64,000 bases of DNA from Varibaculum massiliense. Its GTDB lineage: Bacteria > Actinomycetota > Actinomycetes > Actinomycetales > Actinomycetaceae. Positions 2,333-28,227 of this stretch are shown piece by piece; the first letter of the stretch is position 1; every line of letters starts with the position of its first letter. The DNA is taken from NCBI RefSeq assembly GCF_900106855.1, contig NZ_FNWI01000004.1, forward strand, positions 1,240,001 to 1,304,000, written 5' to 3'. Made by a program: the position numbers and the translations under genes. The notes beneath the pieces were generated by a model. The model did no database searches and was not told the DNA's origin. It saw nothing but the letters and a program-made list of their open reading frames with translations.

Positions 2333-3496
2333 TTACTTGCGTTTATCACTAGCCTTCTCTAGCAAGCTAGTAATCCGCGCTAAATCAGCTTCATCTGCGT
2401 ATTCAATAACTAATTTACTGGTTTTCTTACCCGGTTTAATAACCACACGAGTATCCAAAATATCTGTCCAGCGTGCCTGCGCTAGCTCTTGACTAGCAGA
2501 AAGTTTGGGCTTGCTCCGCGAGGAAGTCCCCCGTCGCCTTGCCGCTCCGCGCACATTTCCCAGTGCCACAATTTCTTCAGTAGAACGTACCGATAGACCC
2601 TCGGCAATAATGCGATCGGCTAGGTATTCTTGATCTGCTGGATCACTTATCCCCAAGAGGGCGCGGGCATGCCCCGCAGAAAGCACTCCCGCAGCAACTT
2701 TCGGTTGCACGCTAGCTGGCAAACGTAACAGTCGCAAAGCATTAGTAATGGCGGGTCGAGATTTAGAGACCCTTTTTGAAAGTTCCTGCTGAGTACAGCC
2801 AAAATCCTCCATTAACTGCTGATAGGCTGCTGCTTCTTCCAAAGGATTAAGTTGAACTCGATGCAGGTTTTCGATGAGCGCATCCAATAACATCTTGTTA
2901 TCGCTGGTTTCACGAACGATAGCAGGAATCTGGTCTACTTTCGCCAGCTGACATGCTCGCAGCCGCCGTTCTCCCATGATTAATTCGTAAGCGTTTTTAT
3001 CGGTAGGATCTGTGCGCACCACAACTGGTTGTAATAGTCCTACTTCTTTTATTGAAGCAGCCAGTTCCGCAATTTCATCTTCGTCGAAGGTTTGGCGGGG
3101 CTGGGAGCGATTGGGATTTATTTTCTTAACTGCTATAAGTTCAAGTCTCGCCCCCGGTACCGGTACCAACGATGTTTCACGTGAAACATCGTCTTTCCCT
3201 TCACCTTTCTTTGACTGAGGTGATCGAACTTGCTTTACCTTGCGTGCTGCCAAATTTTCAGCTTTTTTTCGCTCAGTTTGGGGGCGCGAACTACGTAATG
3301 TTTCACGTGAAACAATTTTACGAGGTTCCAAAAGTTCCTTGGCGGAACCACCTTTGGGGGAGTGCCCGTGACCACCAAAAAAAATATCTGCCGGTCGAGA
3401 GTCAGTATCTGCTTTCACTTCTGCAGGTTTAGTTTCTACTGGCTCTGTGGGAATCAGCGCAGATAGCCCTCGCCCCAAATGCTTCTTTCTCGCCAT
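2333..3496 (-). CDS. parB: Chromosome-partitioning protein ParB (CTPase, parS-binding)
   Basis: Binds parS near the origin and spreads as a CTP-dependent clamp, acting with ParA in chromosome segregation. The 387-residue protein has MARKKHLGRGLSALIP at the N-terminus, which is the usual ParA-interacting motif. A low-complexity linker of about 100 residues follows, then the ParB/sulfiredoxin CTPase domain (about 120-215: INPNRSQPRQTFDEDEIAELAASI and the GERRLRA motif), an HTH (about 235-290: TQQELSKRVSKSRPAITNALRLL) and a C-terminal dimerisation region. Its start overlaps the parA stop by one base (TAATG arrangement). Both perfect parS sites of this window lie in the linker-coding part and are translated as VSRET near residues 61-66 and 103-108. 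Confidence 0.97.
   Translation of the reverse strand: MARKKHLGRGLSALIPTEPVETKPAEVKADTDSRPADIFFGGHGHSPKGGSAKELLEPRKIVSRETLRSSRPQTERKKAENLAARKVKQVRSPQSKKGEGKDDVSRETSLVPVPGARLELIAVKKINPNRSQPRQTFDEDEIAELAASIKEVGLLQPVVVRTDPTDKNAYELIMGERRLRACQLAKVDQIPAIVRETSDNKMLLDALIENLHRVQLNPLEEAAAYQQLMEDFGCTQQELSKRVSKSRPAITNALRLLRLPASVQPKVAAGVLSAGHARALLGISDPADQEYLADRIIAEGLSVRSTEEIVALGNVRGAARRRGTSSRSKPKLSASQELAQARWTDILDTRVVIKPGKKTSKLVIEYADEADLARITSLLEKASDKRK
3173..3188. promoter_or_regulatory. parS: parS site 1
   Basis: TGTTTCACGTGAAACA is a perfect match to the widely conserved 16-bp parS palindrome bound by ParB. Here it is embedded in a longer 20-bp palindrome spanning 3171-3190. It lies within the parB coding sequence, about 5 kb from dnaA. 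Confidence 0.95.
3299..3314. promoter_or_regulatory. parS: parS site 2
   Basis: A second perfect 16-bp parS, TGTTTCACGTGAAACA, 126 bp from the first. It is in the same reading frame of parB, so both sites encode the same pentapeptide VSRET. Confidence 0.95.
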
Positions 3497-4401
3497 TACG
3501 ATTTCTCCTCCCGGCTAACCAACTCATAAGCGGCATCTAAATAACATTTTGCACCTTTAGAGGCCGGTTGGTAAGTCAAAATGGATTCTTCATGCGAGGG
3601 AGCCTCTGCTAAAGCCACGTTACGGGGAATAATTGTTTCCATCACTATGTCGCCATAGTAGGCGCGTACCTCTTCTAAAACTCCTTTACCTAGCAAGGTG
3701 TTGGTGGTAACCATGGTAGGCAAAATCCCGGTAAATCGCAGGTGGGGATTAAGGCGAATAACCAACATATCAATGGTGTTAGTTAATTGAGTAAGTCCCT
3801 CCAAAGCCAAATATTCTGCCTGCAAAGGAACCAAGACTTCCTGCGCAGCTACCAAGGCGTTAACCGTCATTATCCCCAGCGATGGGGGAGAATCGATGAA
3901 GATATAGTCGAAATATTCGCCACCGCTTAATAATTGATGTACTGCCTCGGCAAGAATCTGTTGAAAATTAGTCCGCTCGTTTAGCTCTAGCTCTATACCC
4001 GCCATATTCATAGAGGCAGGTACTACCCAAAGATTCGGGATTTTCGCGTTTTGTACTAGCGCGTCTCGCAGAGCTGTTCCTTCGGTCATTACCTCGTAAA
4101 GGGAAAGCTGGCCTTCAACGAGGTGACGAAAACCTAGAGAAGAGGAGGCGTTTCCCTGCTGGTCAGCATCGATAACCAGAACTTTTAATCCACCTAAAGC
4201 CAGCGCCGCCGCTAGGTTCACCACCGTAGTAGTCTTACCGACACCGCCTTTTTGGTTCGCCACCGCAATTACCCGCGGTTTTTGGGGCGCAGGCAAAATA
4301 TCGGTTTCGCCGGGATTAAACGCACGCCTAGTAAAGCCGTTATCGTTTCCGCTATCTGCTTGCTCCACCATATCTGCATCTGCTAATCGATGCTTGCTCA
4401 T
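3496..4401 (-). CDS. parA: Chromosome-partitioning ATPase ParA
   Basis: Walker-type ATPase of 301 residues that binds DNA non-specifically and moves ParB-parS complexes. The deviant Walker A KGGVGKT is at residues 51-57 after VIAVANQ. The Walker A' segment VLVIDADQQGNASSSLG and the Walker B region FDYIFIDSPPSLGIMTVNAL are present. An N-terminal extension of about 40 residues precedes the ATPase core, as in other actinobacterial ParA proteins. It lies directly upstream of and one base overlapping parB, and 36 bp downstream of rsmG, so it is probably in one transcription unit with the rpmH-side genes. Confidence 0.97.
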   Translation of the reverse strand: MSKHRLADADMVEQADSGNDNGFTRRAFNPGETDILPAPQKPRVIAVANQKGGVGKTTTVVNLAAALALGGLKVLVIDADQQGNASSSLGFRHLVEGQLSLYEVMTEGTALRDALVQNAKIPNLWVVPASMNMAGIELELNERTNFQQILAEAVHQLLSGGEYFDYIFIDSPPSLGIMTVNALVAAQEVLVPLQAEYLALEGLTQLTNTIDMLVIRLNPHLRFTGILPTMVTTNTLLGKGVLEEVRAYYGDIVMETIIPRNVALAEAPSHEESILTYQPASKGAKCYLDAAYELVSREEKS

Positions 4402-4437
4402 TATGCCTCCAACAAGAGTTGTAAAAAGCTTGCCACC

Positions 4438-5091
4438 CTAGGGGCGCTTCGTTGCCATGATGATACGAGTGATTGAATCATCCATTAGGGAAGGTACTTC
4501 CTCTATATGTGCCGACTCTAGTTTAGCGGCTGCCAATTCCTCCCGAGCCTCTGTTAGTTCCAGGGGAGCTCGCTCGCCCTTAATCGCTAGCATCCGTCCT
4601 CCAGGAGCCACCAGTTTGCCCGAGATACGCACTAGTTTCTTCAGGTTCGCAACCGCCCGGGAGGTAACCGCAGAAAACTTTTGGTTAGGGGGTAAATCTT
4701 GGCTGCGAGAACGCAATACTTCTACGTTTTCTAGTCCCAGCTCATTCTTTACTTCCTCTAGCCATTTACTACGCCGAGCCAGAGGCTCGATTAAGTAAAA
4801 CTGCAGGTCAGGACGCATTATAGCTAACACTATACCCGGTAGTCCCGCTCCCGATCCCACATCAGCAACGGTTACATTTCTGCCCAGAGGCAAGAACTTT
4901 TCCGCCGCCGCGCAATTTAGCACATGCCGCGGCCAGAGCCGGGGGAGTTCGCGCGGACCTAATAGTCCGCGCAATTCACCTTGGTCTGCCAGCATCTGTG
5001 CATAGCGAGTCATAACCGTAAAAGAAGAACCAAAGAACTCTTTTACGTTCTCTCCTGGGAGCGCAAGCTCAAAATCTCCTGCTGCTGACAT
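4438..5091 (-). CDS. rsmG: 16S rRNA (guanine-527-N7)-methyltransferase RsmG
   Basis: SAM-dependent methyltransferase (217 residues, usual family length) that makes m7G527 in 16S rRNA. Loss of this enzyme gives low-level streptomycin resistance in other bacteria. The SAM-binding glycine motif VADVGSGAGLPGIVLAI (about 74-90) and the downstream FSAVTSRAVANLKKL region (about 139-153) are characteristic. It sits between jag and parA, the conserved actinobacterial and firmicute origin order. A 61-bp gap separates it from jag. Confidence 0.95.
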   Translation of the reverse strand: MSAAGDFELALPGENVKEFFGSSFTVMTRYAQMLADQGELRGLLGPRELPRLWPRHVLNCAAAEKFLPLGRNVTVADVGSGAGLPGIVLAIMRPDLQFYLIEPLARRSKWLEEVKNELGLENVEVLRSRSQDLPPNQKFSAVTSRAVANLKKLVRISGKLVAPGGRMLAIKGERAPLELTEAREELAAAKLESAHIEEVPSLMDDSITRIIMATKRP

Positions 5092-5152
5092 AGCGAAACC
5101 TAAATCAGTAAAACCAGCCCGCTAAGACCTAAAAGTCAGCGGGAAAGGCAAA

Positions 5153-5677
5153 CTATTCTTCTTCTGATTCCGGTCCGGTTTCGGTCGGATAAATAACTAC
5201 CGCCCGGTTCGGAGCTTGACCTTGCGAACCGGAATATACACCTTCACCAGCAGCTACGTCGTGACATACTTTACGCTCAAAAGGATTCATAGGCTCAAGG
5301 CGCACCGGTTCCCCGGTGGTTTTTGCCTTGGTTATCGCCTCTTCAGCGATAGCCCGCAATTCTTGTTTGCGTTCCTCACGATAGCCCACAATATCCAGCA
5401 TTAAGCGCGAATGTTCTCCGGTTTTTTGCGAGACTGCCAGGCGAGTTAAATCCTGTAATGCTTCTAGCACCTCGCCCTCTTTACCTACCAAACGCTTCAG
5501 GTCAGAAACATCTTGCGGATCCGCAACCACATCAACACTGGCGCGATCGTGTTCTACATCGATTTCTAAATCTCCGCCCAAATCCGCAATATCGAGCAGT
5601 TCTTCCAAATAATCGGCGGCAATATCGCCCTCTTCTTCTAAAGCTGCCACCCGGTCTGGGGATTCCTCTTCGCTCAT
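5153..5677 (-). CDS. jag: Jag/SpoIIIJ-associated RNA-binding protein (KH-R3H, also called KhpB/EloR)
   Basis: Single-stranded RNA-binding protein of 174 residues. A KH-like domain with the motif GKEGEVLEALQ (about 83-93) is followed by an R3H domain (ERKVCHDVA, then GSQGQAPNRAVVIYP). The family acts with KhpA in RNA control tied to cell wall growth. I set the start at the ATG 5677 (MSEEESPD), which has AGAGGAA upstream. A longer form from 5707 would begin upstream of that ribosome-binding site. It lies 36 bp downstream of yidC, the standard arrangement. Confidence 0.93.
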   Translation of the reverse strand: MSEEESPDRVAALEEEGDIAADYLEELLDIADLGGDLEIDVEHDRASVDVVADPQDVSDLKRLVGKEGEVLEALQDLTRLAVSQKTGEHSRLMLDIVGYREERKQELRAIAEEAITKAKTTGEPVRLEPMNPFERKVCHDVAAGEGVYSGSQGQAPNRAVVIYPTETGPESEEE

Positions 5678-5712
5678 GATACTTATTCCTCTCTTAACTA
5701 CCTGCAATAATC

Positions 5713-7086
5713 CTATCGGTTCTTCCGCCTATTTTTACCGGCATTATTCTTCCTGCGCGCCTGGCGGCGTTTCGCTTTTTCTTGTTCACTCAGCCCGCTA
5801 CCCTGACGGCGACGTTTGGCTTGCGCATCCCGCTGTGCGCGAGTAAGCCGTTTCGGTTGTGCCTGGGCATTGCGTACTCCCGGCTTTAATCCTTCCTGTT
5901 GTTCGGCAGCCTTTTTTTCTAGCGCCGTCATCATGCGGGACTTTTTAACCGGTTTCCTTGGTTTTTCTTCTAGTTCCAGGTCTTGAGCTTTCTTATGCAG
6001 CCTGTCCTGGGTTTCTTTATGGAGGGCGACACCTTCGCGCAACACTTCGCCATTTTCCACCTCGGCAAAGGGATCTTCATTACCTTGGCGATTAGCTTTA
6101 ACCTCGAGGCGTAAGCCCTTCGCTACGTCCTCGCCGCTTAGTCCCATTTCGGACAGCTTCTGGTTGTATTCCTTTAGAGTTTCCTCTTTAAATTTATCGT
6201 ATTTTACCTGGTGACGCCGCATTTGCTTATCATGAGCGGGGGAGCCGGGAGTGGGCAAATAATACATAACGAACATCTGCTGAATGAAGCTGACTACCAT
6301 GGTCACTACCAGGTAGACCAGCACCCCAATCTGCACGATAAAACCGAACCAGGCGGTCATCAGCGGCATCACATATACCATCATCTTCATCATCCGCATT
6401 TGCTGCGGATTGGAAGTGTTCATATTGCGCCGCATATTGATGAACTGTTGGAAGAACATCAACCCGCCATAGAGCAGCACGGAAATAATAATCAGGGCTT
6501 TTGTCGCAGTTGGGTCGGAGGCGGTGTTATTAAAAGTATCCGAAAGATAAACCCCAAAAACTGTAGATTTATCCATCTCTGCCGCCAGGGTGGAATCAAA
6601 CCCTCCGATATGAGCTCCCGGATGCTTAGCGATTAAAGGCATTTGCCAAAGTACCCGGTACAAAGCAGCCAAGATTGGCAATTGAATAAGCAACGGGAAA
6701 CACGATGCCATCGGGTTGACACCATATTCTTTGTACAAGGTCATGGTTTCTTGGCTCATCTGCTGCTTAGAAACCTGGTCGTTGCGTCCCTTATATTTTT
6801 CTTGAATCGCTTTGATTTGGGGCTGAATAGCACTCATTCCCCGGGTGGACTTTATCTGTTTAATAAACAGGGGAATAATTAGTAGCCGCACGAAAATCGT
6901 CAGCACCACGATCGATAGCACCCAGGTAGCACCAGGTCCTTCCGGTAACCCCAACAAAGTCAGTCCCTTGTGGATTCCTACTAGTACCCAGGCAGTCACC
7001 CACTTGAAGGGATATAAAACGGTGTCATACCAGCCGCCCGATGTGGGCTGGGTAGATGCCGCTAGCATCTGCGCATTTAGCAACAT
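5713..7086 (-). CDS. yidC: Membrane protein insertase YidC/Oxa1
   Basis: Integral membrane insertase of 457 residues. It has a first transmembrane segment near residues 50-75, the charged loop IKSTRGMSAIQPQIKAIQEKYKG, the conserved YGVNPMASCFPLLIQLPILAALYRVL hydrophobic core and further membrane helices to about residue 290. A long C-terminal cytoplasmic tail (about 300-457) is rich in Lys, Arg and Gln and ends KNNAGKNRRKNR, which suits ribosome contact. There is no large periplasmic P1 domain, as expected for Gram-positive YidC. It is flanked by yidD (12 bp gap) and jag. Confidence 0.96.
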   Translation of the reverse strand: MLLNAQMLAASTQPTSGGWYDTVLYPFKWVTAWVLVGIHKGLTLLGLPEGPGATWVLSIVVLTIFVRLLIIPLFIKQIKSTRGMSAIQPQIKAIQEKYKGRNDQVSKQQMSQETMTLYKEYGVNPMASCFPLLIQLPILAALYRVLWQMPLIAKHPGAHIGGFDSTLAAEMDKSTVFGVYLSDTFNNTASDPTATKALIIISVLLYGGLMFFQQFINMRRNMNTSNPQQMRMMKMMVYVMPLMTAWFGFIVQIGVLVYLVVTMVVSFIQQMFVMYYLPTPGSPAHDKQMRRHQVKYDKFKEETLKEYNQKLSEMGLSGEDVAKGLRLEVKANRQGNEDPFAEVENGEVLREGVALHKETQDRLHKKAQDLELEEKPRKPVKKSRMMTALEKKAAEQQEGLKPGVRNAQAQPKRLTRAQRDAQAKRRRQGSGLSEQEKAKRRQARRKNNAGKNRRKNR

Positions 7087-7098
7087 GGATTTGCTCCT

Positions 7099-7431
7099 TT
7101 ACTGTTTTACCCGGCTGAGTAGGGATGCATTATCTATCTTTGCCCAATGTTCTTGGAGTTCGCTTAAAGTCATCTGATGATAGGGCGCGCTTTTCCATTT
7201 TCCTTTTTCCGGGGGATAATCGACTCCCCCATCTGAAAGTGGATTACAGCGCACAAGGCGCCAAACACTAAGCAGACTTCCTTTAAGGGCGCCGTGTATT
7301 CGCACTGCCGAAAGCGCATAGTTACTGCAGCTGGGATAATACTTGCAGCGCGGGGGAAATAGGGGAGACAGGTAGCGCTGATAAAAGCTAACTACGAATA
7401 TTAGCCCCCTCTGCGCGATATTCCCACTCAC
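7099..7431 (-). CDS. yidD: Membrane protein insertion efficiency factor YidD
   Basis: Small protein (110 residues) of the YidD family. The signature cysteine-rich block FPPRCKYYPSCSNYALSAVRIHGALKGSLLSVWRLVRCNPL is complete and is preceded by a short amphipathic or hydrophobic N-terminus (IFVVSFYQRYLSPL). It is thought to help YidC-mediated membrane insertion. Its start overlaps the end of rnpA by 4 nt and it ends 12 bp before yidC, which supports one operon. The C-terminal tail after GGVDYPPEK is longer than in many homologues. Confidence 0.95.
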   Translation of the reverse strand: MSGNIAQRGLIFVVSFYQRYLSPLFPPRCKYYPSCSNYALSAVRIHGALKGSLLSVWRLVRCNPLSDGGVDYPPEKGKWKSAPYHQMTLSELQEHWAKIDNASLLSRVKQ

Positions 7432-7781
7432 TTTTTTCCCTTTCGCTGCGCCTTACTTAAAGCCTGATCTAGAGCGGCTCCTAGCTGCCTATAAGAAGCG
7501 GTTTTTGCTTTTCCAAGGGCGCGCACTACGGTTAGGCTTCCGCTGCCAAAACTTTCTATTCGCTGCGCGCTAAGTGCTCGCAAGCGCCGTTTAACTCGGT
7601 TACGATCCACTGCCCGGGGCAAAAACCTTTTAGGTACAACGAAACCGACCAGCGGCGCCGAAGTGCCTAACTGGTCGGGTAGGTGGTGCACCACCATCAG
7701 CTGATTTCCGGCGCTTATTCCCCGCCGAAAAACTAAGGAAAAATCGGCTGATTTTTTCAGGCGATTTGCCTGGGGCAACAT
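7428..7781 (-). CDS. rnpA: Ribonuclease P protein component
   Basis: Protein subunit of RNase P (117 residues), which supports the catalytic RNA in 5' maturation of tRNA. N-terminal LPQANRLKKSADFSLVFRRG and the RNR signature in VPKRFLPRAVDRNRVKRRLRAL match the family. The protein is strongly basic. It lies between rpmH (3 bp after its stop) and yidD, the canonical order. The catalytic RNA gene is not in this window. Confidence 0.95.
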   Translation of the reverse strand: MLPQANRLKKSADFSLVFRRGISAGNQLMVVHHLPDQLGTSAPLVGFVVPKRFLPRAVDRNRVKRRLRALSAQRIESFGSGSLTVVRALGKAKTASYRQLGAALDQALSKAQRKGKK

Positions 7782-8330: not shown

Positions 8331-9743
8331 ATGTCTAGTTCGCTTCAGACAATCTGGCAAGACGCGATTAATAACTTAAAACAAAATCCTCAGGTGGGTC
8401 AGGCAGACCTGGCGTTTGTTCGCATGTCTAAACCCCTTACCACCTACGAAAACACCATCGTTATCGCTACCCCTAATGATTATTCAAAATCGATTCTAGA
8501 AACTCGTTTAGGTTCGTTTTTACGAAAGTACCTTTCCGAAGCTACTTCTCGGGAAGTTATTTTGGCGGTTTCAGTCGATCCCTCCCTAGATAATGGGGAG
8601 ACTATAAATCCCAATGAACAACAAGTGGTTGCACCCGCACCTAAAACTACCCAAAGTACTTCTGTAGAAAAAACTACAGTTTCCTCACCTAAAAAACCTT
8701 ACGATTCCCGGCTTAACTCTAAATACACCTTTGAATCTTTCGTTATAGGGGGTTCTAACCGTTTCGCTCATGCCGCTGCCATCGCGGTTGCCGAAGCTCC
8801 GGCAAAAGCCTATAACCCACTTTTTGTTTACGGAGGTTCCGGACTAGGAAAAACTCATCTACTCCACGCCATTGGAAACTATGCGCTCAAACTTTATCCC
8901 CATATCAAGGTGCGTTACGTAAATTCCGAAGAGTTCACCAACGATTTCATTAATTCAGTATCGGAAGGAAACGCGCACGAGTTTCAACGCCGCTACCGCA
9001 ATATCGATATCTTAATGATTGACGATATTCAGTTTTTGCAGGGTAAAGAACAAACCATTGAAGAATTTTTTCACACTTTCAACTCTTTACATAACGATAA
9101 TAAGCAGGTAGTTATTACTTCCGATGTCCCTCCCAAAAAGCTTGAGGGATTCGAGGAACGTCTGCGTTCACGCTTCGAATGGGGTCTACTTACCGATGTG
9201 CAGCCTCCCGATTTAGAAACTCGCATCGCAATTTTGCGGAATAAGATTCGCCAAGAGGGCGTGGGCGCGCCTCCGGAAGTCTTGTCCTATATTGCTTCTC
9301 GTTTTACTATTAATATCCGCGAGTTAGAGGGCGCGCTGCTAAGGGTTACTGCCTTCGCCTCCCTTACTAAACAGCCCTTAACCTTGCAGCTCGCAGAAAT
9401 GGTACTTAAAGATATTGTTTCTGACCCCAATGATCAAGAAATTACCCCAGCTTTAATTAAGGCTCAGACCGCCGGATATTTTGAAACCACCGTCAATGAC
9501 CTGTGCTCGCCTTCCCGTTCGCGTTCCCTTACCGAGGCTCGACAAATCGCCATGTATTTATGTCGGGAACTAACCGAACTATCTTTACCTCAAATCGGCA
9601 AAGAATTCGGAGGACGCGATCACACTACGGTAATGCACGCCAATAAAAAGATTACCCAGCTAATGAAATCTAAACCGCAGATTTTCGATCACGTCAATGA
9701 ACTAACGAATCAAATTCGACAAGCTGCTCGCCACGCAAAGTGA
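8331..9743 (+). CDS. dnaA: Chromosomal replication initiator DnaA
   Basis: AAA+ initiator of 470 residues that binds DnaA boxes and opens oriC. Domain I (about 1-90) is followed by a short Ser/Thr/Pro-rich linker. The AAA+ core has Walker A GGSGLGKT (about 168-175), Walker B LMIDDIQF (about 228-235) and a sensor region. Domain IV carries the DnaA signature [16 protein letters not shown] chose ATG 8331, which has GGAG at 8321-8324; a TTG at 8286 would extend it upstream without a ribosome-binding site. The linker is much shorter than in Streptomyces. Downstream there is 456 bp of non-coding DNA and then a PBP gene instead of the expected dnaN. Confidence 0.98.
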
Positions 9744-10199
9744 TGTACACAATAAGTTCCCTTTATTTGTCACTAACCTTAGGAAAATTTTGGGAATCTA
9801 TTTAACATTATTTTTCATTGCTACTACCAGTAGAACTACAAAAATGTAGTTCTCATGAGCACAGGTTAAATAGGGTTTCTCCACACCTGTGAATAAACCT
9901 GTTAATAATTGGGGATTTTTTCAAAGTTTCTGTGTATAGATACTTAAATAATTCACCGCTGTCCCCGCCTTCCCCAGAGAATCCCCAGTAAATCCTGATA
10001 ATATTAACAACCTCTATTTAGGTATTTACCTGCGGTTTTATCTGATAATTCCCTAAGTTCAAGTAAGTGATGACTATGAGAAGAAAAAATTTAAGATTCT
10101 AAAAATAACCAACAATAACTTTCCGCGTTAAAGCAGATAATCTGTCATTAACTATTAAATTAGTGCCGACCTGAGCGGTAGCTAGGTTAATCTGTAGCT
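9744..10199. other. oriC: Putative oriC segment, AT-rich region downstream of dnaA
   Basis: 456 bp without a credible gene, clearly AT-richer than the flanks. DnaA-box-like sites are TGTGAATAA at 9888-9896, which fits the relaxed consensus TGTGNATAA, and TGTGTATAG at 9931-9939 with one mismatch. AT-rich, TTAA-containing stretches occur around 9940-9955, 10000-10030 and 10085-10160. A perfect 9-bp stem-loop lies close to the dnaA stop. In actinobacteria oriC usually lies between dnaA and dnaN, so this is the positional equivalent, although dnaN itself is absent. I could find few strong boxes. Confidence 0.55.
9832..9853. terminator. Stem-loop after dnaA
   Basis: AGAACTACA (9832-9840) and TGTAGTTCT (9845-9853) form a perfect 9-bp stem with an AAAA loop, 88 bp after the dnaA stop. 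There is no T-tract after it, so it may be an imperfect terminator or an origin structural element. Confidence 0.45.
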
Positions 10200-12656
10200 A
10201 TGACCGAAAAACACTCCGCAGACAACGCCGGGTTAGGCGATTACGATTTTCCTTCCCGTAAGGAACGTCGTCGACACGAACGAGAACAAATTCAGGCGCG
10301 GGCTCAAGCGGATGTTACGCGTTCGGTGGCTCCTATTAATCCGGCTCGTTATGAAAGTAACCCCAAAAAGAAAGTATCTGCTGCTAAGAGTGTTTCCGGG
10401 CGGGGAAGAACTAATAGTGTTTCTGCAGTCCCTTCCTCTGCAAAGTTAAAACCGGCAGGTAAACCAGCAAAAAGTGTTAAGAAAAATAATGCTAAACCTA
10501 GAAGAAACAGTGTATCCCCGAAGAAAAATTCCGGGATGAAGAACGATCGTCGACCAACCAATTCGCGTCCTAGTACCTCAAGACCAGGTAATAAGAAAAA
10601 TTCGAAGGTAACTCGCCCAGGAAAAAATCCTAAAAGAGTGGGGGTGTGGATAAAAAGGATATTAGGAGTTATTAGCGGACTGATTTTAGTAGGAATCATT
10701 GCCGGATGTCTGACTTTCTTGATTTCCTACTATCGCCTGGAAGTTCCCGAAGCTCAAAAATTTGCGAATGCCCAGGTAACCACGGTTTATTGGGGTGATA
10801 ACGACACTATGATGGGAAAGTTTGCGGAACGAAATCGTACCATCGTAGATACTAAATCTTTCAAAAATTCCTATATTCGTGATGCCGTAGTTGCCAGTGA
10901 AGATCGTACCTTTTATGAAAATAGTGGCATTGATTTTAAAGGTATTGCCCGCGCCCTGTGGAATAACGTGCGGGGACGACCTACCCAAGGCGCCTCTACC
11001 CTTACCCAACAATATGTAGAAAATTACTACACCGGAAGAAATACGGGGTACACCGGAAAATTTAAAGAAACCATTCTAGCTTTGAAAATCAACCGGCAGG
11101 TTCCTAAGGAAAAGATTATTAACGACTATTTAAATACAATCTATTTTGGTAGGGGAACTTACGGGATAGAAGCTGCAGCTAACGCCTATTTTGGAAAGAG
11201 TGCTAAAGATTTAAATCTTTCCGAATCTGCACTACTGGCCGGGATTATTCCTGCTCCCAATGCTTGGGATCCTCTAGTTAGTCCCGAGCAGGCTAAGTCA
11301 CGCTGGAAGCGGGTATTAAACCTGATGGTTACTGACAAAATGATTAAACCAGCAGAAAGAGACGCCGCAACTTTTCCCAAGGTACAAGAAAAAAAGCCGG
11401 AAGCCACCTATTTTAAAGGAACTACCGGGTACTTATTGCAGCATGTGCGGCAAGAATTAATAACTGAAATTGGCTATACCGAAGACGAAATAGATCGCGC
11501 GGGGATTAAGGTTTACACCACTATTGATCCCGAAAAACAAAAAATGTTAGAGGACGCGGTAGGGACTTTGCCGGAAAATAAACCCCAGGGATTGCGGGTG
11601 GCGGCAATTTCAATAGATACCGCTACCGGAGCAGTTATTGCTGAGTATGGGGGAGAGGACTATCAAAAGATTCAGAGAAACGCGGTCACCCAAGATATTG
11701 CGCAAGCCGGCTCTACCTTTAAGCCTTTTGCCCTGCTAGCTGCGCTAGAACACGGGCATAAGTTAGAAGAAAAAATTAGCGGATCAGGACCGATGAAAAT
11801 TGGTGATACTTACATAGGTAACTATGGGGGAGCCTCTTATGGTCAAGTAGATCTTATTCAAGCGACAAAAATGTCTATTAATACTGCCTATGTCAGGCTT
11901 AACAGCGAAGTAGGAATGGATACCACCCGGCAGGTGGCTATTTCCGCGGGGTATCCCAAAGATACTGCCGGTCTGGATCAAGATGTGTTAGTTGGGGTCT
12001 TAGGCAGTAGTTCGCCTCATAATATTGATATTGCCAATGCCTATACCACCTTTGCCACCGGAGGAATACGCCGACCTGCCCACATTATCGCTAAAGTTAC
12101 CGACTCCGCTGGGAATGTGCTTTATGAGGCGGATACTACCGGAACTCGTCAGTTTGAAGAAGAAAATATTTCGGAACTTAATAAAGCGCTAGCTGCTGTT
12201 ACCGAAAGCGGAGGAACTGGAGCGACTGCAGGTAAACTGGGTCGGCCAGTAGCAGCGAAGACCGGATCTTCCAATGACAACCGGTCAGCTCAATTTGTGG
12301 GATATGTACCGCAGATGGTGACTGCGGTTTCTATGTATCAAGTTGGCGAAGATGGATCTGAACAATCAATTACTCCCTTCGCGGGAGTAAGAGAGGTTAC
12401 CGGAGGTACTTTACCTGCAAGGATTTGGTTGGCTTATATGAAGAACGCAGTCAAAGACTTACCTGTGGAGCCTCTGTTTTCCTATAAGGATAAAGACAAG
12501 GAAAATAAGATTGTTCCTAAGGAAAAATCAACTCCTTATCAAACTGCACAGGTACCTTCGCCGCCCCCTCCCCCTACGACCTCCCGACCCCTGATTGTAA
12601 CTAGTCAACCTGCAGAAAGTCCCTCTTCAGAGGAAAGTGAGCAACCTGAGCCCTAG
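10200..12656 (+). CDS. Class A penicillin-binding protein (bifunctional transglycosylase/transpeptidase)
   Basis: An 818-residue cell-wall synthase. A basic, Ser/Lys/Pro-rich cytoplasmic tail (about 1-145) precedes one transmembrane helix (IKRILGVISGLILVGIIAGCL, about 150-175). The glycosyltransferase domain shows VASEDRTFYENSGIDFKGIARAL and the QGASTLTQQYVENYY motif. The transpeptidase domain has the active-site SxxK in AGSTFKPFALL, SxN as SIN in TKMSINTAYV, and KTG in AAKTGSSNDNRSAQFVGY. The C-terminus is Pro/Ser-rich. The long acidic and basic tails are typical of actinobacterial PonA-type proteins. It occupies the slot next to dnaA where dnaN is normally found. The ribosome-binding site before ATG 10200 is weak. 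Confidence 0.93.
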   Translation: MTEKHSADNAGLGDYDFPSRKERRRHEREQIQARAQADVTRSVAPINPARYESNPKKKVSAAKSVSGRGRTNSVSAVPSSAKLKPAGKPAKSVKKNNAKPRRNSVSPKKNSGMKNDRRPTNSRPSTSRPGNKKNSKVTRPGKNPKRVGVWIKRILGVISGLILVGIIAGCLTFLISYYRLEVPEAQKFANAQVTTVYWGDNDTMMGKFAERNRTIVDTKSFKNSYIRDAVVASEDRTFYENSGIDFKGIARALWNNVRGRPTQGASTLTQQYVENYYTGRNTGYTGKFKETILALKINRQVPKEKIINDYLNTIYFGRGTYGIEAAANAYFGKSAKDLNLSESALLAGIIPAPNAWDPLVSPEQAKSRWKRVLNLMVTDKMIKPAERDAATFPKVQEKKPEATYFKGTTGYLLQHVRQELITEIGYTEDEIDRAGIKVYTTIDPEKQKMLEDAVGTLPENKPQGLRVAAISIDTATGAVIAEYGGEDYQKIQRNAVTQDIAQAGSTFKPFALLAALEHGHKLEEKISGSGPMKIGDTYIGNYGGASYGQVDLIQATKMSINTAYVRLNSEVGMDTTRQVAISAGYPKDTAGLDQDVLVGVLGSSSPHNIDIANAYTTFATGGIRRPAHIIAKVTDSAGNVLYEADTTGTRQFEEENISELNKALAAVTESGGTGATAGKLGRPVAAKTGSSNDNRSAQFVGYVPQMVTAVSMYQVGEDGSEQSITPFAGVREVTGGTLPARIWLAYMKNAVKDLPVEPLFSYKDKDKENKIVPKEKSTPYQTAQVPSPPPPPTTSRPLIVTSQPAESPSSEESEQPEP

Positions 12657-12900: not shown

Positions 12901-13185
12901 ATGCGCAAATACGAGATGATGGTGATCCTGAATCCCGAAATCGACGAACGCACCGTAGCCCCGGCATTAGAGAAGCTACTCACGGTAGTTTCTACTAACG
13001 GGGGAAGTGTAGATGCGACCGATATTTGGGGAAAGCGTCGCCTCGCATATCAGATTGAAAAGCATTCTGAGGGGATCTATGCGGTCATCGATATGACCAC
13101 TACTCCGCAGATTGCCGAAGAGCTAACCCGGCAGCTAACGCTAAACGAATCAGTTCTGCGTACCAAGTTGCTGCGGCGCGATTAA
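12901..13185 (+). CDS. rpsF: 30S ribosomal protein bS6
   Basis: 94-residue bS6, beginning [19 protein letters not shown] and ending in the [10 protein letters not shown] region, with the central [24 protein letters not shown] block. It is the first gene of the rpsF-ssb-rpsR-rplI operon. A strong AGGAGG lies 9 nt before ATG, inside a potential leader fold. The 16-bp gap to ssb contains a GAGGAG ribosome-binding site. Confidence 0.97.
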
Positions 13186-13201
13186 GTTCGAGGAGAACAA
13201 A

Positions 13202-13774
13202 ATGGCTGGAGACACCCTGATAACGGTTATTGGGAATCTGACTGCAGATCCTGAGTTGCGCTATACCGCGCAATCGGTGCCAGTGGCCTCGTTTACCGTG
13301 GCCTCCACTCCCAGAACCTATAATCGCGCATCCGGACAGTGGGAAGATGGTACCGCCATGTTCCTGCGTTGTTCTGCTTGGCGGGAAATGGCTGAAAATA
13401 TCGCCGAATCTTTAACCAAAGGGATGCGAGTGATTGTTTACGGTCGCTTGCAGCAACGCAACTGGGAACGGGACGGACAGAACCGTTCCTCCTTAGAGAT
13501 TCAGGTAGATGAAATCGGTCCGTCCTTGCGTTATGCGCAAGCCCAGGTTACCCGGATCCCCCGTTCCAGCGGAGGATTCAATCAGGGAGGACAGGGCGGA
13601 TTCGCTTCTGGCGCTCCAGCTGCCAATTTCAATCAAGGTGGGGGATTTAACGGGGGCGCTGCTGCAAACCTGGGTACAGGTTCGATGAGTGCGGCGCAAC
13701 CGTCCGTGGATGACAATCCTTGGGCTGCTCCTGCCACCAGCGATAACGGCGAGGGTAACGAACCGCCGTTCTAA
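13202..13774 (+). CDS. ssb: Single-stranded DNA-binding protein
   Basis: SSB of 190 residues. An OB-fold domain (about 1-110: [64 protein letters not shown]) is followed by a Gly/Asn/Gln-rich linker and an acidic tip NEPPF, the protein-interaction tail of bacterial SSB. It coats single-stranded DNA and recruits replication and repair proteins. It lies between rpsF and rpsR, the usual place for the main SSB. Confidence 0.96.
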
Positions 13775-13787
13775 AATTTCAGGATAA

Positions 13788-13799
13788 GACCTTCGGGTC
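13788..13799 (+). promoter_or_regulatory. UUCG-capped hairpin upstream of rpsR
   Basis: GACC TTCG GGTC forms a 4-bp stem with a UUCG loop in the 44-bp ssb-rpsR spacer, just before the rpsR ribosome-binding site AAGGAG. It shares stem and loop sequence with the hairpin in the rpsF leader. Confidence 0.45.
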
Positions 13800-13818
13800 A
13801 CACCATTAAGGAGTAAAT

Positions 13819-14061
13819 ATGGCGAAGAAAGTTCTTCGCGCGAAGCCAATAAAGAAAAAGGCTAATCCGCTACGTAATATGCCGGTTGAAAAAATCGACT
13901 ATAAAGACACCCCGTTCTTGCGGAAGTTCATTTCCGATCGCGGAAAGATTCGTTCGCGCCGGGTTACCGGAGTTAGCGTACAGCAACAGCGCGCCATCGC
14001 TAAAGCAGTTAAGAATGCCCGCGAAATGGCGTTGCTTCCCTACACAAGTTCTGGTCGCTGA
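13819..14061 (+). CDS. rpsR: 30S ribosomal protein bS18
   Basis: 80-residue basic bS18 with [54 protein letters not shown], the family core almost in full. The N-terminus [21 protein letters not shown] has no zinc-binding CxxC pair, so it is probably a zinc-independent form. If so, a zinc-binding paralogue may exist elsewhere. AAGGAG lies 6 nt before ATG. It is followed after 15 bp by rplI. Confidence 0.96.
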
Positions 14062-14076
14062 TAGGAGGGTCTAGTC

Positions 14077-14538
14077 ATGGCAACAGCCAAAATTATTTTG
14101 AATATGGATGTACCGGGGCTGGGTTCTTCCGGTGACGTAGTAACCGTAGCTCGCGGCTATGCCCGCAACTACCTGGTACCGCGAAAAATGGCGCACCCTT
14201 GGACTAAGGGAGCCCAAAAGCAGATCGACGAAATGATTCGGGCGCGCCGGCGCCGGGAAATCTCTAACGTAGAGGATGCCCGGGCAGTGCGGGATGCGAT
14301 TGAAGCCCACAATACCGTGGTAGTTTCCAAGCGGGCTGGCCATTCCGGTCGTCTCTTTGGAGCAGTATCCGCCCAGGACGTGGTGGCAGCGGTTAAAGAA
14401 CAGATCGGGCAGACCATAGATCGGCGCAAGGTTATTATTGAAAAGCCGATTAAAGCGGTTGGAAAATATCAGATTCAAATCAATTTGCATGAAGATATTA
14501 GCGCCAAACTGTTTGTAAATGTTGAGGGTGGCAAGTAG
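14077..14538 (+). CDS. rplI: 50S ribosomal protein bL9
   Basis: 153-residue bL9. The N-terminal domain KIILNMDVPGLGSSGDVVTVARGYARNYLVPRKMA is followed by the long helix and the C-terminal domain (KAGHSGRLFGAVSAQDVV, then AVGKYQIQINLHEDISAKLFVNV). It is the last gene of the rpsF operon and is followed by a strong terminator. Ribosome-binding site AGGAGG is at 14063-14068. Confidence 0.97.
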   Translation: MATAKIILNMDVPGLGSSGDVVTVARGYARNYLVPRKMAHPWTKGAQKQIDEMIRARRRREISNVEDARAVRDAIEAHNTVVVSKRAGHSGRLFGAVSAQDVVAAVKEQIGQTIDRRKVIIEKPIKAVGKYQIQINLHEDISAKLFVNVEGGK

Positions 14539-14572
14539 TAGTCAACTACTGTCATAGCTACACTTTGCGGGG

Positions 14573-14614
14573 AAAAGTCGGGTGATCTTAAATATAAAGA
14601 TTGCCCGACTTTTT
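14573..14614. terminator. Bidirectional intrinsic terminator between rplI and the MATE gene
   Basis: AAAAGTCGGG (14573-14582) and CCCGACTTTT (14604-14613) form a perfect 10-bp stem around a 21-nt loop. A T-run on each strand can serve the rpsF operon and the convergent MATE gene. Confidence 0.8.
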
Positions 14615-14697
14615 CCTGCTTAGCTGGGGGAAAGCTTCAGCTACTTTCGCGGGCGGCAATAGCAAGATAGCTAGTTAAGAGGAAAAGCTCAGAACAT

Positions 14698-16011
14698 TTA
14701 GAGCCAAGCATCGCTGCGGATGCGTAGCCATAGAGAGAACGCCCTCCCGCCCATAAAAACGATTCCGTAGGCTGCCCAGATTCCAGCTAAAGCAAGGGAG
14801 CCGGCAGGTAAAAGACGTACCAATAAAATCGCTGGTAGATAGATAAGAAAAACTATCGCCATCGTTGCGGCCAAGTATTTACTGTCATCAGCACCAATCA
14901 GGTAACCATCATAAATGTAGGTGAGTGCAGCTAAAGGTTGCACTAGACCCACCACTATTAAGCCGACAGTGGTAACCGAGAGAACCTGAGGATCGGTGGT
15001 AAATAGCTGTGGTAAAAGCGGAGAGGCCGCTGCAAGTAAGAGTCCAATCAAGCTTCCACATCCTAGTGCCCAACGGTTTAAGCGTCTTATGAGGACGCGA
15101 ATTTGTTGTTTGTTGCCCTGTCCGAGAGCTTGCGCTAGCAGTGCTTGGGCAGAGATTGCTAAGGCATCCAAACCGAAAGCTCCCAGTACCCACAAGGTTT
15201 TTAGAATCTGATAGCCCGCCAAAGTGTTCGCCCCGAAACTAGCAGCCTGCCAAGTAGTGACCACAATCGAGGCTTGTAGGAACAAGGAGCGACAAACCAG
15301 GGGAATTCCGTGCAGGCCCGAGCGTAAAACTAGCTGCGGGTGAGGACGCGCGGACACTCCCTCCAAACGCAATTTCTTTATTATTACTATCCACATCCAG
15401 GTGGCCATGAAAAACTGGCTAATCGCGGTGCCTGCCCCCGCCCCGGCGACCCCCAGCGAGCAGCCGAAAATCAAGAATGCAGATAGCGGCACATTAAGGA
15501 TTGCCCCAACGGTGGTAACTAGCAGGGGAGTGCGGGTATCCAAGAGTGCGCGTAAAACTCCGGTAGCAGCTAACATTGAAAGCATCGCTATAAGTCCTGG
15601 AGCGGAAGCTATTAAGTAGTGGCTGGCAAACGCTCCAACCGCTGGTTGCGGATTAAAAATCCCCACAATTTGGGGAGCAAACATTATTAGGATTACTGCT
15701 AGTACTGTCCCTAGGGCTCCGCCTAGCCACATGCCTTGAATTCCTAGGCGCAATCCCTCACCCCGATTGCCAGCTCCGACTGCTCTCCCAGTGACGGCAG
15801 TGGTGGTATAGGCCAAGAATACGCAAATGCCCACAATTAAGGTTAGGACTGTGGATCCGATAGCTAGACCCGCCAATTCTAAAGTTCCCAGATGACCAAC
15901 CAAGATAGAGTCTGCCATGGTTAGCAGAGGTTCGGCGATGAGGGAGCCCAAAGCAGGCAGGGCTAAAGATATAATCTGCCGATTAAGGCTCTGTTTTGGC
16001 GCTTTATCCAC
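14698..16011 (-). CDS. MATE-family multidrug/DinF-like exporter
   Basis: A 437-residue membrane protein with twelve hydrophobic segments in the two-bundle MATE layout. N-terminal LNRQIISLALPALGSLIAEPLLTMADSILVGHLGTLELAGLAIGSTV is the family signature and resembles DinF-type members. It would export organic cations or metabolites using a Na+ or H+ gradient. I placed the start at GTG 16011: the upstream ATG at 16026 overlaps the GGGGGAGGA ribosome-binding site that serves this GTG. It is divergent from dnaB, with DnaA-box-like sites between them. Confidence 0.88.
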   Translation of the reverse strand: MDKAPKQSLNRQIISLALPALGSLIAEPLLTMADSILVGHLGTLELAGLAIGSTVLTLIVGICVFLAYTTTAVTGRAVGAGNRGEGLRLGIQGMWLGGALGTVLAVILIMFAPQIVGIFNPQPAVGAFASHYLIASAPGLIAMLSMLAATGVLRALLDTRTPLLVTTVGAILNVPLSAFLIFGCSLGVAGAGAGTAISQFFMATWMWIVIIKKLRLEGVSARPHPQLVLRSGLHGIPLVCRSLFLQASIVVTTWQAASFGANTLAGYQILKTLWVLGAFGLDALAISAQALLAQALGQGNKQQIRVLIRRLNRWALGCGSLIGLLLAAASPLLPQLFTTDPQVLSVTTVGLIVVGLVQPLAALTYIYDGYLIGADDSKYLAATMAIVFLIYLPAILLVRLLPAGSLALAGIWAAYGIVFMGGRAFSLWLRIRSDAWL

Positions 16012-16246
16012 GAATCCTCCCCCCATTTGTTATACACAACCAAAGAAAAACTCTGTTAATAGTTTCCCAGTTTGTTACCTGTTTATAAACTCGCGTTTAT
16101 TTATTACCCACAGCTATCTGGAAAATTTCCACAGGTTATCAACAGCATTTACACCAGTTGTGCTGGGTTTTCAACAAAGCATTTGGGTTTTCACTCCCGG
16201 TTTATGACAGAATTAATCAGCTAATAATCACGGTTAGGAGGCTAAG
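16012..16246. promoter_or_regulatory. MATE-dnaB divergent promoter region with DnaA-box-like sites
   Basis: A 235-bp non-coding region holding TTATACACA (16030-16038), which fits the relaxed box TTATNCACA. TTACCCACA (16104-16112) and TTATCAACA (16136-16144) each have one mismatch to TTATCCACA, and ATTTCCACA (16125-16133) has two. All are in the same orientation. This could allow DnaA to regulate dnaB or could hold DnaA away from oriC. Confidence 0.45.
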
Positions 16247-17572
16247 ATGGCAGATTTTGATCGCACTCCTCCCCAAGATATCGCTGCTGAACAAGCAGTT
16301 TTGGGAGCGATGATGCTCTCTAAAGATGCAATCGCCGATGTGACTATGACTATCACCGGCGAGGACTACTACCGCCCGGTGCATCAAACCATCCACGAAG
16401 TTATCCTGGATTTGTTTGGGCGCGGCGAGCCAGTAGATGCTGTCACTGTCGCAGGTCAGCTAAAACGTAACGGTGATTTAGAGCGAATCGGGGGCGCCCC
16501 CTATCTGCATGAATTAATTTCCGGGGTGCCTACCGCCGCGAACGCGGGATACTATGCCCGGATTGTGCGCGAGCGGGCACAGTTACGATCCCTGGTTCAG
16601 GCGGGTACTCGGGTGGTGCAGCTGGGCTATGCTGCCGATGGCGGGGACGTTGATGAACTAATTAACCAGGCACAAAGCGAAATCTATGCGGTCAGTGAAC
16701 GTGGCAATTCCGAGGATTATCGCCCAATTACCGAATTTCTAGATGAAACTGTGCAACAACTGCAAGAATTGGAAAAAAATGGGGGTTTTGCTTCTGGGGT
16801 ACCCACCGGTTTTTATCAGTTAGATAACCTCGCTCATGGGTTGCATCCCGGTCAGCTAATAATTGTTGCTGCCCGTCCCGCCATGGGTAAATCGACTTTG
16901 GCGCTCGATTTTTGCCGCAACGCCGCCATCCATAACAATATGACCTCGGTAATTTTCAGCCTAGAAATGGATGGTACCGAGATTTCTCGCCGTATGATTT
17001 CCGCAGAATCCGGAGTTTCCATGTCCCGGATGAGCTCTGGGGATTTAGAAGATGCGGATTGGACCAAGATTGCGCAGGTACTTTCGCGGTGTGCGCAGGC
17101 TCCCCTCTATATTGATGATTCCCCCAATCTCACCCTGCCGGAAATCCGCTCTAAGTGCCGGCGGCTAAAGCAACAAAATGATTTAAAACTGGTGGTCGTG
17201 GATTACCTGCAACTGATGAGTTCCGGTAAACGAGTAGAATCCCGCCAACAGGAAGTGGCCGAGTTTTCGCGTTCGCTAAAACTCTTGGCGAAAGAACTAG
17301 ATATTCCGGTAGTGGCAGTTGCCCAGCTGAACCGCGGTCCTGAACAGCGCACCGACCGAAAACCAATGCTTGCCGACCTGCGTGAATCTGGATCTTTAGA
17401 GCAGGATGCGGATGTGGTGATGCTGCTGCATCGTCCCGAAGCCTATAACCAGGATGACCGTCCAGGAGAGGCCGATATTATCGTAGCTAAGCATCGTAAC
17501 GGGCCGACCGCAACTATCCCGCTGACCTTCCTGGGGCGTCTGTCTAAGTTCGGAAATCCGGCTCGCGAATAG
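16247..17572 (+). CDS. dnaB: Replicative DNA helicase DnaB
   Basis: Hexameric helicase of 441 residues that unwinds the fork. The N-terminal domain starts TPPQDIAAEQAVLGAMMLS. The RecA-like domain has Walker A ARPAMGKST (about 205-213), Walker B LVVVDYLQLM, and the arginine-finger region LADLRESGSLEQDADVVMLLHRPEAY. No intein interrupts it, unlike dnaB in some mycobacteria. AGGAGG lies 7 nt before ATG 16247. The next gene, an MMPL transporter, is convergent, 39 bp away. Confidence 0.97.
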   Translation: MADFDRTPPQDIAAEQAVLGAMMLSKDAIADVTMTITGEDYYRPVHQTIHEVILDLFGRGEPVDAVTVAGQLKRNGDLERIGGAPYLHELISGVPTAANAGYYARIVRERAQLRSLVQAGTRVVQLGYAADGGDVDELINQAQSEIYAVSERGNSEDYRPITEFLDETVQQLQELEKNGGFASGVPTGFYQLDNLAHGLHPGQLIIVAARPAMGKSTLALDFCRNAAIHNNMTSVIFSLEMDGTEISRRMISAESGVSMSRMSSGDLEDADWTKIAQVLSRCAQAPLYIDDSPNLTLPEIRSKCRRLKQQNDLKLVVVDYLQLMSSGKRVESRQQEVAEFSRSLKLLAKELDIPVVAVAQLNRGPEQRTDRKPMLADLRESGSLEQDADVVMLLHRPEAYNQDDRPGEADIIVAKHRNGPTATIPLTFLGRLSKFGNPARE

Positions 17573-26831: not shown

Positions 26832-27161
26832 TTATTTATCGATTTCTGCCTGTAGTGGACCCAGGAGTTCCCGTTTGGGGTTAGCTCCCAGAATGCCGCG
26901 AACAATCTCCCCCTGGTTGAACACCATGAACATGGGGATAGAGTTAATGCCATATTTGGCTGCCAGCTGGGGGTTCTCGTCGATATTTACTTTGACGACT
27001 TTAGCTTTCCCCGCAACCTCGGCGGCCACCTCATCTACTATCGGACCCATCTGGCGGCAAGGTCCGCACCAGGGTGCCCAAAAATCTACCAACACCGGGA
27101 GTTCAGATTTTAATACTTGCTGGTCAAAATCTTTTTCTGTAACTTCTAGGGGTTTTGTCAT
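26832..27161 (-). CDS. trxA: Thioredoxin
   Basis: 109-residue thioredoxin with VDFWAPWCGPCR (active Cys32 and Cys35), cis-Pro region INSIPMFMVF and GANPKRELL. It reduces protein disulfides with electrons from TrxB, 36 bp upstream. The gene order trxB-trxA is the common one. An AGAGAGGA-type ribosome-binding site precedes ATG. Confidence 0.97.
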   Translation of the reverse strand: MTKPLEVTEKDFDQQVLKSELPVLVDFWAPWCGPCRQMGPIVDEVAAEVAGKAKVVKVNIDENPQLAAKYGINSIPMFMVFNQGEIVRGILGANPKRELLGPLQAEIDK

Positions 27162-27197
27162 CTTATTTTCCTCTCTAAATGGTTAAGAATAATTCTG

Positions 27198-28118
27198 CTA
27201 GTCAGCTAGGGAACGTTCGGCATCCAGGGCAGCTCGGCATCCGGAAGCGGCAGCGGTAATTGCTTGCCGATAGGTGTGGTCGACTAAATCTCCACAGGCG
27301 AATACGCCGGGAACATTGGTGGCGGTACCGGGCAGGTCAACCCGCACATATCTGGATTCATCCAGATCTACCTGTTCTTTAACTAGCTGGGAGCGCGGCT
27401 CGTGACCAATCGCCACGAACACGCCGGTGGCGTCCAACGTGCTTTCTTTGCCGTCCACAGTCGACTGCAAGGTAATCGACTCTACTTTGTCTTCCCCATT
27501 AATCTGGGCAACAGTACTGTTCCAAGCGAAATCGATCTTGGGGTTAGCCCCAGCCCGTTCGGCCATAATCTGGGAGGCGCGCAGCTGATCGCGGCGATGA
27601 ATCACCGTTACTTTCTTGGCGAACTTAGTTAAGAATAGCGCTTCTTCCATTGCGGAGTCTCCCCCGCCGACGACCGCCAAATGCTGGTCTTTGAAGAAGA
27701 AACCGTCACAGGTAGCACAATAGGAAACTCCGCGTCCGGATAGTTCCACCTCGCCAGGCACATTCAGTTTGCGGTACTCCGAACCCATCGCCAAAATCAC
27801 GCGGCGAGCCTGATACTGGCCCTCGGAGGTAACCACCTGTTTTATCTCCCCCTCTAGGGAAAGCTCAAGGGCGTCCTCGTAAAGAATCTCGCAACCGAAA
27901 CGTTCAGCCTGCGAAAGCATATTCGCCATCAAATCCGGTCCTTGGATCCCTTCAGGGAAACCGGGAAAGTTTTCCACCTCGGTAGTGTTCATGAGGGCGC
28001 CACCTGCGGTTACTTCCCCAGCAATCAGCAGGGGATTAAGACCCGCACGGGCGGTGTAGATGGCCGCCGTATAGCCGGCAGGTCCTGAACCGATAATGAT
28101 AATGTCGCGTACCGACAT
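27198..28118 (-). CDS. trxB: Thioredoxin reductase
   Basis: 306-residue low-molecular-weight flavoprotein that passes NADPH electrons to thioredoxin. FAD-binding [21 protein letters not shown] (about 6-26), redox-active CATCDG (C134, C137), NADPH-binding [15 protein letters not shown] and the C-terminal [29 protein letters not shown] are all present. It is coupled with trxA. In many actinobacteria sigM lies between murJ and this gene; here 109 bp separates it from murJ with no gene between. Confidence 0.97.
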
Positions 28119-28227
28119 GAAGCCTCCTAGATTTTCCCGCTCCCGCAGTTACTAAAGCTATTTTCGCAGCTTAAAACCTTGCGCCGCAACCAGTTAACGC
28201 AGTAAGCGAAACCAGAGAGTTACCGGT

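Follow-up and report, generated by a model that had tools for sequence, protein, structure and literature searches.

The stretch of DNA analyzed here, referred to as the window, covers 64,000 nucleotides of Varibaculum massiliense (contig NZ_FNWI01000004.1, positions 1,240,001 to 1,304,000, i.e., G000:C4:1240001-1304000; region GC content 52%), whose genome is available in 4 contigs. It contains dnaA, the apparent replication origin (oriC) downstream of it and, as the new neighbor of that origin, a ponA-like gene for a class A penicillin-binding protein (PBP) in the place usually held by dnaN. Positions without prefix are those of the window; G numbers denote sampled genomes of the family Actinomycetaceae, g1 is the genus of V. 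massiliense, and g28 and g34 are two sister genera.

The initial annotation had stated that dnaA is followed by 456 bp of AT-rich DNA and then by a class A PBP gene, and that dnaN, recF and gyrB are absent from the window. All of this was borne out. The next gene, at 10200, encodes the Pfam domains of a class A PBP, the gap has a measured GC content of 34%, and tblastn with the DnaN, RecF, DUF721, GyrB and GyrA proteins of the same genome gave no match within the window (E <= 1e-3). When the genes were sought genome-wide, as the annotation had proposed, the sole dnaN match in the genome was at C4:1202014-1203135 on the minus strand, outside the window. The dnaN gene itself spans C4:1202002-1203135, with its start 45.2 kb to the left of the dnaA start. 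Together, dnaN, recF, the DUF721-like gene, gyrB and gyrA lie 45-60 kb to the left of dnaA, all on the minus strand. The dnaN, recF, gyrB and gyrA genes are relocated to the other chromosome arm and not lost.

A five-gene peptide/nickel-type ATP-binding cassette (ABC) operon lies directly ahead of dnaN, with purT and topA next toward dnaA. A pst phosphate-transport operon with a two-component pair is present between the DUF721-like gene and gyrB (L002:13030-19062, i.e., C4:1193030-1199062), as it is in five of the six genomes of the genus, with only a pstS match found there in G044. The usual left flank of dnaA, from parB to rnpA, is unchanged, its order being identical in the outgroups. Coordinates are collected in Table 1. 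The names dnaA, PBP, rpsF, ssb, dnaB, parB (by TIGR00180), dnaN, recF, gyrB, gyrA, pcnA, murJ and NUDIX are based on family matches; those of trxA, trxB, rplI, jag, yidC, rsmG, parA, yidD and rnpA are presumed from position or sequence.

Table 1. Features of the dnaA region and of the displaced genes (window positions unless prefixed with C4)
Feature	Position	Strand	Remarks
parB, parA, rsmG, jag, yidC, yidD, rnpA	2333-7781	minus	usual dnaA left flank
DnaA-box-like pair upstream of dnaA	8217-8249		perfect TTATCCACA at 8217; TTATCCCCA on the minus strand at 8241; pattern scan
dnaA	8331-9743	plus	Pfam PF00308 Bac_DnaA, PF08299 Bac_DnaA_C
oriC, apparently retained	9744-10199		456 bp, dnaA-PBP gap
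Inverted repeat AACTACA-AAAA-TGTAGTT	9832-9858		inside an invariant 25-base block (9834-9858; six species); own arms 9 bp (9832-9853)
Four DnaA-box-like sites	9877, 9888, 9900, 9931 (9877-9939)		<=1 mismatch to TTATNCACA, within 63 bp
DnaA-trio-like block	10066-10113		AGTGATGA at 10066-10073, then AT-rich; candidate unwinding element
Class A PBP gene (ponA-like)	10200-12656	plus	Pfam Transgly, Transpeptidase
rpsF	12901-13185	plus	in PBP-gene block 12901-17572; family match
ssb	13202-13774	plus	in PBP-gene block; family match
rplI-like	14077-14538	plus	in PBP-gene block; name presumed
MATE transporter	14698-16026	minus	inside PBP-gene block
Five DnaA-box-like sites upstream of dnaB	16004-16144		pattern scans
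dnaB	16247-17572	plus	in PBP-gene block; family match
trxA, trxB, murJ, DUF6049, NUDIX; pcnA	26832-36657	minus; pcnA plus	second arm-switched block
gyrA	C4:1187944-1190610	minus	
gyrB	C4:1190623-1192647	minus	
DUF721-like gene	C4:1200003-1200716	minus	
recF	C4:1200661-1201977	minus	

Distribution of the junction within the family

To place the junction in context, 200 family genomes were searched with the V. massiliense DnaA and with TIGR00663; a dnaA match was obtained in 198 of these at E <= 1e-40. Among the 135 genomes in which both genes were among the matches listed, dnaA and dnaN were adjacent and on the same strand in 127, with gaps of 330-954 bp (median 463 bp). The eight non-adjacent cases were the six sampled g1 genomes, G057 (g28) and G034 (g34). 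Some of the 65 genomes outside the 135, G017, G024, G051, G058 and G080 among them, also proved to have dnaN next to dnaA when their junctions were read. In total, the junction was read in 40 chosen genomes: all nine of the sampled g1, g28 and g34 genomes showed oriC joined to the PBP gene, and the other 31 had dnaN next to dnaA and none had the PBP junction. The arrangement is therefore no ordinary family trait, a possibility the annotation had raised, since in the genomes examined it is confined to three genera. The annotation's premise that dnaN usually follows dnaA in actinobacteria also held, with dnaN directly downstream at 77 of 80 dnaA loci from titled records, mostly actinobacterial; two of the others reached a contig end. 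The last, L032 (a metagenome-assembled Pseudonocardiales genome, JAFAUB010000108.1; dnaA at 9518-11014), showed no match to dnaN over the ~9 kb downstream, and may be either a second case of separation or a binning or assembly fault.

Phylogenetic analysis of DnaA, DnaN, RecF, GyrB and GyrA (45 taxa, 2679 columns) placed g1, g34 and g28 in one clade with a FastTree support of 0.998, with g27 as its sister (0.986) and g30, g6 and g20 next (0.998). GyrB was represented by 43 taxa and GyrA by 41, G057 having neither and G068 no GyrA; one GyrB and two GyrA rows covering <40% of the length had been removed. An IQ-TREE tree, without support values, recovered the same three-genus clade. Read most simply, these trees imply that the junction was formed a single time, in an ancestor preceding the split of g1, g28 and g34. 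The dnaA gene itself was found in two frames in the single-contig genomes G028 (C1:418-1541) and G080 (C1:13-1442), perhaps through sequencing errors.

DnaA-box-like sites at oriC, dnaB and dnaN

The gap between dnaA and the PBP gene has several properties of an origin. Its length is close to the family median for the dnaA-dnaN gap, and the minimum of the cumulative G-C curve over 144 kb falls at window position 10229, a GC-skew switch computed for this stretch. DnaA-box-like sites lie both ahead of dnaA and within the gap (Table 1), though in the window as a whole they numbered 46 against 35 expected, a count reached by 5 of 100 shuffles. When the gap was compared among six species of the genus, the only invariant runs of at least 8 bases were the palindrome block, GTTTCTCCACA (at 9875-9885, invariant in 6/6 species) and AGTGATGA.

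The last of these, likewise invariant in all six species, has its end 124-128 bp ahead of the PBP start; the 40 bases after it are 72-88% AT. A search for similar trio-like blocks, using an expression composed after the sequences had been viewed, found them in 15 of 31 gaps before dnaN, the nearest starting 137-229 bp before that gene; measured in the same way, the distance from the start of the block to the PBP gene is 131-137 bp in g1 and 142 bp in G057. The same expression found no trio-like block in the dnaA-PBP gap of G028, and G034 was judged by eye. The sites adjoining AGTGATGA in g1 are poor DnaA boxes, whereas box-box-trio blocks occur in several relatives (again by a post hoc expression). 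In our interpretation AGTGATGA corresponds to the DnaA-trio, although the match is short and the adjacent boxes are poor in g1. Because the box-like sites, the trio-like block and the skew minimum all remain between dnaA and the PBP gene, the break probably lies within the last ~130 bp before the PBP gene, leaving oriC uncut. The annotation's proposal of a rearrangement at the usual oriC junction is thereby supported and refined, in that oriC appears intact and only its dnaN side exchanged.

The inverted repeat within the gap has an AAAA loop and arms of 9 bp in three of the six species and 7 bp in the other three, with diverging flanks around the block, and its core pattern gave a single hit per genome in the three genomes searched. 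As RNA, it is predicted to fold better than shuffled sequences (z -3.4). It may represent a regulator site or a transcript end.

Clusters of box-like sites are also found at dnaB. The 300 bp upstream of dnaB contain 2-6 such sites in 13 of 14 family genomes and one in G013, where the window rate would predict 0.22. This cluster is older than the rearrangement, because it is present where dnaB lies far from oriC (G067, G080). Its conservation suggests control of dnaB by DnaA in the family; a DnaA-titrating site is another possible function.

Ahead of the displaced dnaN is a gap of 207 bp containing GTTATCCCCAGTTTT and TATAATGGGAGACT, both invariant in the six species, and GTTATCCCCAG is invariant at a putative DnaA site in the same upstream region. 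GTTATCCCCAGTTTT starts 48 bp ahead of a conserved TATAAT hexamer, which itself lies ~103 bp ahead of the dnaN start codon and would belong to a promoter of dnaN's own. TTATCCCCA occurs at C4:1203277, at dnaN, and in the window at 2647, 3870, 8241, 8894, 39390 and 47309, i.e., six times against 0.69 expected. Genome-wide it was found 38 times, compared with 22 for a reversed control, and seven of the 38, including that at dnaN, fall in an 84-kb stretch bounded by dnaN and window position 47.3 kb, limits that were set post hoc. TTATCCCCA could be a lineage-specific variant of the DnaA box. A more far-reaching idea, which we regard as unlikely, is that control was rewired when dnaN was uncoupled from dnaA and the PBP gene came to lie directly behind oriC. 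The box-like site that precedes TATAAT by 48 bp would have returned dnaN to DnaA control. DnaA bound at or near oriC would influence the PBP gene, and a few kb further on ssb and dnaB, the latter behind a box-like cluster of its own, so that wall synthesis would be tied to initiation.

Gene order, strand and the proposed history

The ancestral order was approached through outgroups. G067 has dnaB-MATE-rplI-ssb-rpsF-ponA, then pcnA-NUDIX-DUF6049-murJ-trxB-trxA, followed by the genes from parB to dnaA, oriC and dnaN-recF-DUF721-gyrB-gyrA. The order in G074 is the same except that dnaB is reversed and MATE not present; that in G017 is similar, with dnaB outside the stretch covered and trxA not found. 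No trxA was detected in G013 either, where an ABC operon separates trxB from the PLP gene and ponA lies at -34 kb. In G005 the genes from trxA to dnaB form an unbroken series on one contig. Relative to this, three blocks are inverted in the g1 genomes: that of dnaN is on the left, ponA-dnaB immediately follows oriC on the right, and trxA-pcnA, found to the left of dnaA in outgroups, occupies +18 to +28 kb on the right arm. The right arm of G034 resembles that of g1, and g28 shares both the oriC|ponA-dnaB order and the leftward dnaN. Past the junction, the ponA-rpsF-ssb-dnaB order continues in G000, G011, G044, G057, G034 and G028. In g27, dnaA-dnaN is intact and ponA-dnaB lies on the right at about +20 to +27 kb.

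A leftward dnaN on the minus strand was also found on one contig with dnaA in G044, G086, G103 and G057, and, with the record treated as a circle and distances counted over its start, in G011 and in G028 (g28; dnaA found in two pieces), where it is ~52 kb away; in G034 and in G068 (g1) the two genes are on different contigs. G044 alone has murJ-pcnA on the left, with dnaN at -71 kb and gyrA at -91 kb. In g28, murJ adjoins dnaN (G028 C1:1859680, G057 C7:71771), away from its usual pcnA-NUDIX-DUF6049-trx block.

The PBP gene was placed in 44 genomes, with a single best location counted for each (in G176, one copy out of two) and some chromosome lengths rounded. It was adjacent to oriC on the plus strand in nine, left on the minus strand in 27, right on the plus strand in seven and on another contig in one; never was it left and plus (0/44) or right and minus (0/44), so that it points away from dnaA in 43/43. 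In G042, G046, G156, G166 and G175 (g4, g10 and g15), the gene lies on the right arm, plus strand, 29-67 kb from an intact dnaA-dnaN pair, probably reflecting independent arm switches of the same block. In G176, a single-contig genome, matches to murJ, ponA and pcnA are doubled near both ends of C1 (near 1330-23716 and 2418141-2428485), perhaps an uncollapsed overlap of the circle.

To relate arm to strand, reciprocal best gene pairs (>= 35% identity, dnaA left out) were compared within ~190 kb of dnaA. Between G011 (g1) and G080 (g27), 18/18 pairs that switched arm had flipped strand and 32/37 same-arm pairs had kept it; since the 18 switched genes form about six blocks, these amount to about six independent cases. 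Similar results were obtained for G028 against G080 (8/8 flipped, 38/40 kept) and against G011 (13/14 flipped, 37/44 kept). The comparison of G028 with G074 gave 10/11 flipped and 14/25 kept, that of G080 with G074 5/7 and 28/45, and that of G080 with G030 10/16 and 17/36. The close comparisons show the pattern of origin-spanning inversions, and the more distant ones are noisier.

Taken together, we consider it likely, with a probability of roughly 0.8, that in the common ancestor of g1, g28 and g34 inversions spanning the origin took dnaN-recF-DUF721-gyrB-gyrA from the right to the left arm and put ponA-rpsF-ssb-rplI-dnaB, a left-arm block in the ancestral order, on the right-hand side of an oriC left whole. 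One breakpoint would have fallen in the ~130 bp between the unwinding element and the next gene, with oriC staying attached to dnaA. Because they were inverted on changing arm, the moved blocks still point away from the origin, i.e., lie on the leading strand. They would also remain origin-proximal, with dosage little changed: dnaN moved from about 2 kb to 45-71 kb off oriC, and is thus still near the origin, if not equidistant.

Several observations weigh against this history. The flip rule weakens in G011 against G074 (16/21 flipped, 11/20 kept) and G030 (23/31 flipped, 12/21 kept), and is absent between the outgroups G074 and G030 (5/11 flipped, 22/30 kept). A reversal search with four blocks needed 4 steps with fixed flanks and 3 with swapped arms, so one inversion is insufficient and at least three would be required for four blocks; no intermediate arrangement was found among the genomes compared. 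Treating g27 as an intermediate left the reversal total equal (2 + 4 with or without it). A single inversion with ends at oriC|dnaN and at ponA|pcnA or trxA|plp was considered and rejected, as it predicts a whole-arm swap with trxA-pcnA beside dnaN or oriC, which is not seen in g1; the position of murJ beside dnaN in G028 and G057 partly fits that model, with pcnA elsewhere there. In G028, gyrB-gyrA occupies +46 to +48 kb on the right arm, separate from dnaN-recF, so that the block was split or moved piecewise. Finally, it is upstream of dnaB and not in oriC that DnaA-box-like sites cluster most densely within the 144 kb.

That last point, with the five box-like sites at dnaB against four in the dnaA-PBP gap, and the invariant TTATCCCCA upstream of the displaced dnaN in six species, could be taken to mean that the functional origin moved with dnaN or sits at the dnaB cluster, the dnaA-PBP gap being a relic. 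We judge this very improbable: relative to its minimum at 10229, the cumulative G-C curve is ~150 higher ahead of dnaB and ~1040 higher at dnaN, the dnaB cluster also occurs in genomes with dnaB tens of kb from oriC, and a trio-like block is present in the dnaA-PBP gap. Less improbable, if still unlikely, is a single inverted transposition, through a mobile element or illegitimate recombination, that reinserted the dnaN block on the left arm. It would yield an identical map with fewer steps for the dnaN block alone, and the split of gyrBA from dnaN in G028 indicates that pieces are able to move singly. However, trxA-NUDIX, a copA-like gene, topA and a distal block at 48-52 kb likewise switched arm with a flip, and the complete set of flips against G080 fits repeated origin-spanning inversions better than randomly oriented transpositions. 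As for an assembly artefact joining unrelated contigs at 9.7-10.2 kb, against which the annotation had cautioned, nothing was found in its favor beyond the division of the V. massiliense genome into contigs. Misassembly is effectively excluded, because the same junction recurs in five more g1 genomes and three of the sister genera, two of these eight (G011 and G028) being single-contig.

Comparison with known systems

The dnaA-oriC-dnaN neighborhood is among the most conserved in bacteria, the canonical Gram-positive origin having the order rpmH-dnaA-oriC-dnaN-recF-gyrB-gyrA. As far as dnaN, this order was found in the 31 genomes noted above. The V. massiliense locus resembles it in retaining the left flank, dnaA and the oriC gap, but differs in that ponA-rpsF-ssb-dnaB replaces dnaN, recF, gyrB and gyrA to the right of oriC. 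An annotation rule that expects dnaN right after dnaA consequently fails in the three-genus clade. Among the open-licence titles and abstract openings surveyed, none dealt with a separated dnaA-dnaN in Actinomycetaceae, although it may have been published elsewhere.

In B. subtilis, dnaA and dnaN form one operon, and overexpressed DnaA represses its own gene and thereby depletes DnaN, as stated in a 2019 paper (PMC6669920) with reference to Ogura et al. (2001). Comparing a clade that has lost this link with a sister genus that still has it offers a natural experiment on whether replication control depends on the linkage or the linkage is simply a legacy. The 2019 paper also describes a basal unwinding system with DnaA-trios, which the box-like sites, the trio-like block and the AT-rich DNA downstream of dnaA resemble; unlike in that system, no good boxes were found directly beside the trio-like block in the genus of V. 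massiliense.

Inter-replichore translocations, as outlined by Khedkar and Seshasayee (2016; PMC4889656), who also cite high rates of inversion near oriC, preserve distance from oriC and strand bias in symmetric cases. As in those translocations, the genes described here change arm; unlike in the cases presented there, the breakpoint lies inside the dnaA-oriC-dnaN unit and dnaN goes from about 2 kb to 45-71 kb from the origin. The arrangement is thus likely a clade-specific inter-replichore translocation, a known type of event that is unusual here in splitting dnaA-oriC from dnaN.

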